Shown in pieces: positions 27,501 through 32,120 of a stretch of DNA of 34,478 nt (positions are counted from its first letter, which is position 1; each line of letters starts with the position of its first letter). The notes under the pieces are model-generated. The model ran no database searches and was not told the DNA's origin. It worked only from the letters and a program-made list of their open reading frames with translations. The stretch is from Oscillospiraceae bacterium. Lineage in GTDB: Bacteria > Bacillota > Clostridia > Oscillospirales > UBA929. The stretch is from positions 1-34,478 of the forward strand of contig JAIRTA010000046.1 in NCBI GenBank assembly GCA_031255175.1, given 5' to 3'. Made by a program: the position numbers and the translations under genes.

Positions 27501-30066
27501 CGGCGAGGCGCTTGCGGAGTTCGAACCCGCGAAGCTGCGCTATTCCCTGGGGTGGGAGAGCCAGACACTGCCCGTCGTCACGGCGGCGCCCATCGACGGC
27601 GCGCAGATCTTGAGCATTACATCGGACGCCGACGCCGCTATGGTGACCATCCGCTGCGCCAGCACAGACCAGGTCAACGTCTATGTGGTGAAGTTCGGTT
27701 CGTACCCGCGCAGCGACGAATTTGACGGAACCGAGATGAAACCGTTCTGGTCCGTCAACACCGACGCGGCCGGCGGCGGCGAAACCGCCAACTGGTCGCT
27801 GACCGACGGCGCGTTGCGCATCACGGCGGAGAGAGGCGACTTCTGGACGACGCACAACGACATCAAAAACTTCTTCCAGCAGGAGGCCTTTGGAGATTGG
27901 GAGGCCACCGCCAAGGTCACGATCAACAAAGTGCCCAACGCCAATTACAACGGGCTCGGCATCGTGGCGTTCCAGGATGTGGACAACTACATCTGGCTCA
28001 AGTACGAGTACAGTTCCCAGCGGTTGGTCGGCCTTGTGAGAGAAAACGGCGCCGCGGAGCCGGTCTCCTTCGGCGCGCTGACATCCGCCCAGGTCACGAG
28101 CCTGATCGGCGACAACCAAACGCTCTACCTGCGCCTGAAGAAGATCGGCGACGTGTACACCGGCTCGATCGGCACCGACGGCGTCAACTTCACCGTGCTG
28201 GGCTCTGTCGCGGCCGCCTACTCCGAGCCGAAATTCGGCTTGCTCTGCTCCCACGGCAGCGTTTCGAACGCCGTCGGGTCGTTCTACGCCGACTACGATT
28301 ACGTCCGGTTTGACCGCGAGGCGCTGCCCGCCGTCACCGAAATCGACGGCGACGCCAAGCTGAAGCTGGCCGCCACGGAGCCGGCCCTGCTGACGCCGCG
28401 CATCACCCCGGTCGACTCGGGCGACACGGACGGCGGCCGGAGTTACACCAACTGCAACGGCGGGGAGGCGATGGCCTACCGGCTGAATCTCCGGGAGGCC
28501 GGTACATACAAGCTGTCGGCGCGCATCAAGTCCGGCGCTTCGGAAGTCGCGCAGATGTCGTTCTCGCTTTATGTGGACGACGTATATTTGGGCGCGTTTT
28601 CCACCACGAGCACCGGCGGCCGCTGGGTCACGCTGTCGCGGGATATCGAGCTGACGCAGGGCGTGCACACGCTCCGGCTCGCGTTTGAGACCTCCGGCAT
28701 AGACGTCAACTGGCTGCGGTTCCAGCGCCGGGGCGGCGCGGCGCCGAACGTCGAGGCGCTGCTGGCCGCCATCGCGCAGGCGGACGACATCGACCTGAGC
28801 GAACTCACACCCTCAAAGCGGGAGGCGTTCGCGCCCGTGCTGGCCGAGGCGAAGGCCGTCGCGGCCGACCCGGTCGGGCAGCGGGAAGTCGATGAGGTGA
28901 CGGGCGCGCTGCTCGTCGCTCTCGAGCGGCTTTTGAGCGGCCTGCCCCTCAACCAGCCGCCCAAAAACAGCGAGACGTTTATAAACGCCGACGGGAAACA
29001 GGTCGTGCGCATCCGCGCCCACGAGTTCCCGTGGATCTGGGCCCAGAGCGGTGATTTCCGCTACGAGGGCTCCGCGCCCAACTACAACGCGGGCTACATC
29101 ACAACCGGAGACGTCTTCTACCTCGGCGCCGTGGACCTGACGGGGCTGGAGGAGATCAAAGTGAGCTACGCAAACGGCAACACGAGCACCAACCAATACC
29201 AACCGTCCGTCTACTTGCAGTTCCACACGGAGGCGGATTTTGACGGTGAGGCCGTGCAGCGCACCACGCACGCAAACAGCACATACAGGTACAGCGACGT
29301 TTACGGCGGCGGTTCGTTCACATTCGGCAGCCAGTTTGCCGGGATCAACTTCCTGCACAAGAAGGCGGCCAGCTGGACCGTGTACGGCGACGCCGGCACA
29401 GCCGGGAACATCAACGCGCCGGGGACGCACACGGGCATGACAAACTACTGGGAGGTCGGCGTCAAAACATTCTTAAACCGCACGCTGGCCTCGGGCGTGC
29501 AAAATGTTTTCCTCCGCCTGTACGAGGGCGGCGTCAACCTGCGCTATGTGGATATGATCTACGAGACGGTCACGGCCTCGTTTGACTGGAACTACGAGGG
29601 CGCGCCGGCCGCGCCGGCCCCCGTCACGATCCCGAGAGGAACGGCCTTGCGCCTGTTCCCGGCGGTGCCGGAGAGAGAGGGTTACCGGTTTGAGGGCTGG
29701 CGGACGGCGGACGGCCTGGCCGTGGAGGAAAGTACCCCCATCGACAGAAACGTCACCCTCTACGCGCAGTGGAGCGCGCATCTCGCCCTGACGCTCCGGG
29801 CGGCGGACGACGCCTCTGTGCTGGCCGAGGCCGCGCTGTTAAACCTCGGCGAGACGGACCGCACGCTTGTCCTGATCCTCGCGGCCTATGACGCCGCGGG
29901 GCGGTTGGTGGACGTCCAGACACAGACAGAGACGGCGCCCGCGGGCCTCCGGACGGAGATCCGCGCGTCGCTGTCCCCGGCGCCCGCCGCGGCGTATGTA
30001 AAAGCCTTCCTCTGGGAAGACGGCGTGCGTCCGCTCCTGCCCGAGGCGGGGCTGCAAACGGCGTAA
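24598..30066 (+). CDS. Secreted multidomain glycoside hydrolase, circularly permuted GH3
   Basis: An 1822-residue exoenzyme. Signal peptide ([20 protein letters not shown], cleavage near 33). The GH3 C-terminal domain comes first (~45-330), with probable acid/base Glu179 in AGEDKDN and [11 protein letters not shown], followed by the Fn3-like domain (~330-455). The GH3 N-terminal TIM barrel is then last (~520-835), with [32 protein letters not shown] and nucleophile Asp760 in GIVMTDWW. After it: cadherin-like strands (~865-1035), a concanavalin-like domain from 1040, a CBM6/35-like module (~1245-1376), a helical spacer, a second carbohydrate-binding-like region from ~1461, an Flg_new (Listeria-Bacteroides) repeat at ~1662-1725 ending TLYAQW, and a C-terminal domain (1728-1822) shared with the next gene. 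No sortase or SLH anchor. Substrate probably a beta-glucoside or xyloside polysaccharide fragment. Confidence 0.88.
   Translation: [1822 protein letters not shown]

Positions 30067-32120: not shown

Follow-up and report, generated by a model that had tools for sequence, protein, structure and literature searches.

One predicted Ig-like family closes large exoenzymes in many Clostridia

Two converging exoenzyme genes and their tails

In the window, by which we mean the whole 34,478-nucleotide stretch of DNA that was analysed, two genes for secreted enzymes run toward one another. The first, on the forward strand, is an open reading frame (ORF) for a GH3 exoprotein of 1822 aa (24598-30066) that begins with a signal peptide of 32 residues (24598-24693, forward strand) predicted by a hydrophobic-core heuristic. 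Pfam models assign GH3_C to residues 51-305, an Fn3-like domain to residues 359-434, GH3_N to residues 539-828, CBM_6 to residues 1274-1376 and List_Bact_rpt to residues 1674-1724, as well as DUF1349 to residues 1063-1219 with a score below its own cut-off. GH3_C precedes GH3_N in this enzyme (24748-27081, forward strand), an inverted order that has a precedent in some beta-glucosidases. The second gene, on the reverse strand, encodes a secreted C69-family dipeptidase of 637 aa (30207-32120; PF03577, E = 8.5e-57), with a signal peptide predicted by the same heuristic (32028-32120, reverse strand; MKRTMTAFVKRAAAISLSAVFFAATAIGASA) and a catalytic region matched by PF03577 at residues 31-421 (30858-32030, reverse strand). 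By the ORF coordinates, an intergenic gap of 140 bp (30067-30206) lies between the two.

Elsewhere in the window, an ORF of 1352 aa (7144-11202, forward strand) fuses CarB, the large chain of carbamoyl-phosphate synthase, in frame to DapF, the diaminopimelate epimerase. Fused CarB-DapF ORFs of 1325-1487 aa are also found in genomes G002, G003, G006, G007, G008, G019 and G021, and the two proteins seem to be unfused in G001, G018 and G020. At 21192-23237 (forward strand), a weak SpoIID-like region is followed by four PG_binding_1 repeats.

The GH3 and C69 proteins have in common a C-terminal domain of ~90 residues, which we term the tail domain. The GH3 copy occupies residues ~1730-1820 (29785-30057, forward strand), as placed by pairwise alignment and by a profile match of 91.4 bits (E = 7.3e-26), and the C69 copy residues ~550-630 (30231-30473, reverse strand; 79.1 bits, E = 4.7e-22; AF2 model mdb3dbd75ccc3). 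An earlier note on this DNA had proposed that one C-terminal domain is present on both convergent exoproteins, and the alignment bears this out at a level far above chance: the two C termini reach a BLOSUM62 score of 132 over ~75 residues, a value attained by none of 2,000 shuffles (mean 29, maximum 51). The residue ranges given in that note are correct, with the profile-placed domains falling inside its 29779-30490, and the motifs that it quoted, YDA-x-GRL-x-x-VQT, SL-x-P-x-x-AAY and AF-x-W, are found in both tails. Compared as DNA, the same two tails score a weak 31, less than the highest shuffle score of 36; the likeness is therefore one of protein level and old.

It had also been suggested that the domain-coding end was duplicated locally between the facing genes. 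The close convergence of the genes fits a recent event of this kind, as does the fact that the best match of the C69 copy within its genome is the GH3 copy. However, in a tree of 157 copies (built by a quick method and poorly resolved at depth), the C69 copy pairs not with the GH3 copy but with the copy on the orthologous C69 protein of G003, a sister species, at 64% identity and an SH-aLRT support of 99. The GH3 copy is as close to copies from other genera as it is to the C69 copy, and the DNA-level score lies below the shuffle maximum, and we reject a recent local duplication. Many other copies of the genome likewise pair with sister-species orthologues, the two copies of the window are not joined to each other, and no domain-bearing GH3 gene was found adjoining the C69 gene of G003; this pairing and the lack of a GH3 neighbor in G003 place the origin of the copies before the species split. 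A second convergent gene pair, with both members ending in the tail domain and ~140 bp between them, is present elsewhere in the same genome (G000:C36:14661-15282).

The closest records to the window C69 protein are from metagenome-assembled genomes (MAGs) labelled Oscillospiraceae or Clostridiales Family XIII, the latter being the Anaerovoracaceae of the class Clostridia under current taxonomy; judging by their isolate names, these MAGs are probably bins from insect guts. In two Family XIII MAGs (L096 and L097), C69 orthologues with 55-61% identity carry a different tail of ~190 aa in place of the domain, in which we found no Pfam match and no recognised anchor. The module is thus exchangeable.

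Hosts and distribution of the tail domain

In the 2.5-Mb genome from which the window derives, a single copy used as query matched 40 places, and a profile search recovered ~56 strong copies at E ≤ 1.4e-7. The profile built from 30 of these own-genome copies (A1) matched none of 135 reversed ORFs. Nearly all of the copies lie in very large ORFs with a signal peptide, the hosts being mostly 1000-2600 aa long, and by a simple heuristic a signal peptide was scored in 50 of the 53 hosts with a complete N terminus. These hosts span the enzyme classes GH2, GH3, GH92, GH97, GH127, GH43, GH53, subtilase (S8) and C69; within 53 N-terminal host regions, Pfam detects GH2 in 17-18 and GH3 in 5-6, together with many CBMs. 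The proposal that unrelated secreted enzymes share a genuine module therefore holds well beyond the two window proteins, both in the source genome and class-wide: the family is independent of enzyme class and reaches tens of copies in each rich genome. The copies are divergent: their identity to the C69 copy is 22-33%, and few residues are invariant.

The expectation that the domain always ends secreted proteins is correct for the majority of copies and too strong as a rule. Among 54 copies in complete ORFs of this genome, a stop codon follows within 15 aa of the domain in 43, and the remaining 11 lie internally or are followed by a longer stretch; the corresponding counts for other genera are 55 terminal copies out of 62 and 7 that are internal or trailed by a longer stretch. 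Some of the internal copies look like former protein ends, as in L031, where a GH53-Big_4-domain unit is followed by a second GH53-Big_4. In sampled contigs, 38 signal-peptide ORFs of at least 1000 aa that are complete or reach a contig edge carry the domain and 6 lack it, a biased share because presence of the domain or of SLH was the criterion for picking the contigs; the six include three SLH proteins and one protein with a PBP-like N terminus.

The distribution of the family is patchy at close range and broad at the level of the class. Of five genomes from the same genus, three have 32-83 copies each and two have no copy, and the domain was found in 0 of 12 genomes from other genera of the same family. 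Class-wide, the profile matches 98 of 391 genomes and 60 of 223 genera, where a listed count of 13 copies for a genome means at least 13. An invention specific to the genus, the explanation prompted by the 12 same-family genomes, is ruled out by the 98 class genomes. Most of 20 hosts from other genera have a signal peptide, as do nearly all of those that are complete and full length. One such host from another genus (L213:452-5305, reverse strand) is built of leucine-rich repeats, nine Listeria-Bacteroides repeats, two cohesins and a dockerin, followed by the terminal domain. The two same-genus genomes without copies (G001 and G005, 1.5-1.6 Mb) have SLH proteins and 0-2 GH2 matches, compared with the 32-83 tail domains of their sisters, which suggests that the exoenzyme repertoire was lost as a block.

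Predicted fold and relation to known families

Two AlphaFold models, one from own-genome copies (pLDDT 91) and one from other-genera copies (pLDDT 93), agree on an Ig-like beta-sandwich of six to seven strands, the last of which forms the end of the chain. For both models, obtained from separate alignments, the second domain of GH2 enzymes, which is Ig-like, is the nearest match among solved structures, with Z scores of 10.0 and 9.3 (6d50, Z 10.0, rmsd 2.9 Å over 91 aligned residues; 2vmf and 6hpd, Z 9.3). Transglutaminase barrels are further fold neighbors at Z ~7.7-7.9. The same relationship is visible in sequence: 6hpd gives a weak match by direct comparison (E = 0.0013), and the first ~55 residues align to PF00703, the GH2 Ig-like family, in a profile-profile comparison (E = 2.6e-8). 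Despite this best fold match, PF00703 domains are internal to GH2 enzymes, between the sugar-binding and barrel domains, whereas the tail domain ends GH3, C69 or any other class of enzyme. Of the 20 GH2 Ig-like matches in the genome, 19 are located in tail-domain hosts.

FxLYD (NF038353) is the other near relative. It is likewise Ig-like and shares an N-x(8-12)-I/F-x-x-YD-x-x-G core with the tail domain, and hhalign aligns the two over ~52 residues with E values of 1.7e-5 for own-genome copies and 2.6e-7 for those of other genera. The matched FxLYD model, however, stops before the F-x-W-D...P-L part of the tail domain, and its matches here are mostly in short ORFs of 172-482 aa. The window C69 copy scores 20.4 bits on FxLYD, under the cut-off of 23, one divergent relative exceeds it with 24.7 bits, some other members score near or below it, and there is no FxLYD match in the genome at E ≤ 1e-4. 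A match to FxLYD, as a generic family with no targeting role, had been named beforehand as a result that would speak against the proposal, and this applies in part: we find a distant kinship within the FxLYD/GH2-Ig superfamily, but with the window copies below the family cut-off.

Other searches gave little. No Pfam model was matched by the window copies, including PF00703 at E ≤ 1. DUF7490 (PF24318) matches one distant relative in another genus with 38.5 bits (cut-off 27), and gave no match to the window copies and no useful match to most other own-genome copies. Sequence searches of the PDB returned no solved member of the tail-domain family, a viral structure search gave weak beta-sandwich matches only, and we found nothing on the domain in the literature on FxLYD, clostridial C-terminal modules and termite Anaerovoracaceae. 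We place the tail domain in the FxLYD/GH2-Ig superfamily as a branch that the curated libraries checked largely miss, new as a family and with a fold that is already known.

The family has an ending of its own, K/R68-x-F70-x-W72-D ... P80-L81, and an A, a Y, an F/Y, a W and a P hardly vary among its members. Over the 157 copies, conservation is highest at W72 (99%), Y31 (98%), A29 (97%) and P80 (97%), with F70 at 86%. The hydrophobic positions 24/26/28/30 and 67/69/71 are interleaved with A29, Y31, F70 and W72, so that these four residues lie on the opposite face of their strands. Judged from the sequence pattern, this second face could serve as a binding face if it is exposed, or as a latch if it lies under the P-L tail.

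A putative role at the ends of exported enzymes

SLH repeats (PF00395) offer the nearest functional comparison, being, like the tail domain, an enzyme-independent and often terminal module of Clostridia exoproteins and occurring in all of the domain-rich genomes tested. The two are nonetheless unrelated in sequence and fold and were not found together in one protein: Pfam finds no SLH in the window GH3 or C69 protein, SLH-bearing ORFs and tail-domain hosts do not overlap in the genome, and SLH does not rank among the 25 Pfam families most often detected in host tails. SLH is present in 20 of 20 domain-rich and 16 of 30 domain-free genomes (Fisher p = 2e-4), a comparison of conveniently picked genomes in which exoprotein richness is a confounder, and the link may be a by-product of many-exoprotein genomes having both.

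Because the hosts are diverse, the domain is mostly terminal, nearly all sampled giant exoenzymes carry it and no SLH host does, we favor an enzyme-independent role at the C terminus, the likeliest candidate being a putative surface retention of exoenzymes, to which we give a rough probability of 0.42 on circumstantial grounds. The job of the domain would be tied to the C terminus of exported proteins and not to any single catalysis, and it would keep enzymes that lack any other anchor attached to the envelope of the cell or to an assembly on its surface, in bacteria that rely on SLH repeats for their other exoproteins. Several observations count against retention, among them the structural nature of the fold relatives, the C69 orthologues with another tail, the host that combines cohesins with a dockerin, and the SLH-bearing genomes G001 and G005 that nevertheless lack any copy. 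The low identity and scarcity of invariant residues also weigh against it, as they would be expected if only the fold were kept.

Only slightly less likely, in our view, is that the domain acts as a structural end cap: with no binding partner, a generic Ig-like sandwich would seal the end of long multidomain beta-rich enzymes and stabilize them against unfolding and gut proteases. Such a cap is quite possible given that the fold neighbors, the GH2 second domain and the transglutaminase barrels, are structural domains within enzymes, that the predicted final strand is the end of the chain, that the A29/Y31/F70/W72 face could pack the P80-L81 tail, and that C69 orthologues do with a different tail. 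A spacer or cap should, however, often be internal, repeated or swapped for other Ig types within a genome, whereas this domain is mostly single and terminal, with one family on nearly all giant exoenzymes of contigs chosen for the domain or SLH. If the same conserved face, with K/R68, F70, W72 and Y31, instead bound a glycan, either on the substrate or on the wall of the cell itself, the domain would be a carbohydrate-binding module, in keeping with its clustered aromatic and basic residues, with hosts that are mostly glycosidases bearing other CBMs, and with one Foldseek match to a porphyran-binding CBM (8wae, E = 4e-3). Its occurrence on C69 enzymes and subtilases, which need no glycan, and the failure of any Pfam CBM family to match it make this improbable.

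Type IX CTDs (TIGR04183) are also terminal, low-identity beta-sandwiches on tens of unrelated secreted proteins. Using them as an analogy, one may imagine that SLH-bearing Clostridia possess a putative surface-retention or sorting module with its own receptor, which would position most giant exoenzymes in parallel with SLH anchoring but independently of it, in the way that type IX CTDs operate in Bacteroidetes; we consider this somewhat unlikely. That the domain is itself a C-terminal sorting signal for a dedicated surface machine, a clostridial counterpart of the type A CTD of the Bacteroidetes type IX system, is very doubtful. The tens of unrelated cargoes sharing one low-identity terminal beta-sandwich with a YD-x-x-GR hairpin would suit such a signal, and Por_Secre_tail (TIGR04183) gives a sub-threshold match (E ~0.05) to one member per alignment, but this match is at chance level, no profile match is significant, the host organism belongs to the class Clostridia, and some tested SLH genomes are without the domain.

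Whichever role applies, the tail domains of the GH3 and C69 proteins belong to one Ig-like beta-sandwich family that closes large signal-peptide exoenzymes of many Clostridia, with members in about a quarter of the sampled genomes of the class. Giant glycosidases secreted by gut Clostridia often bear a signal peptide without any known anchor. One uncurated terminal domain on most such enzymes provides both a profile for annotation and a small module with which to probe retention at the cell versus release.
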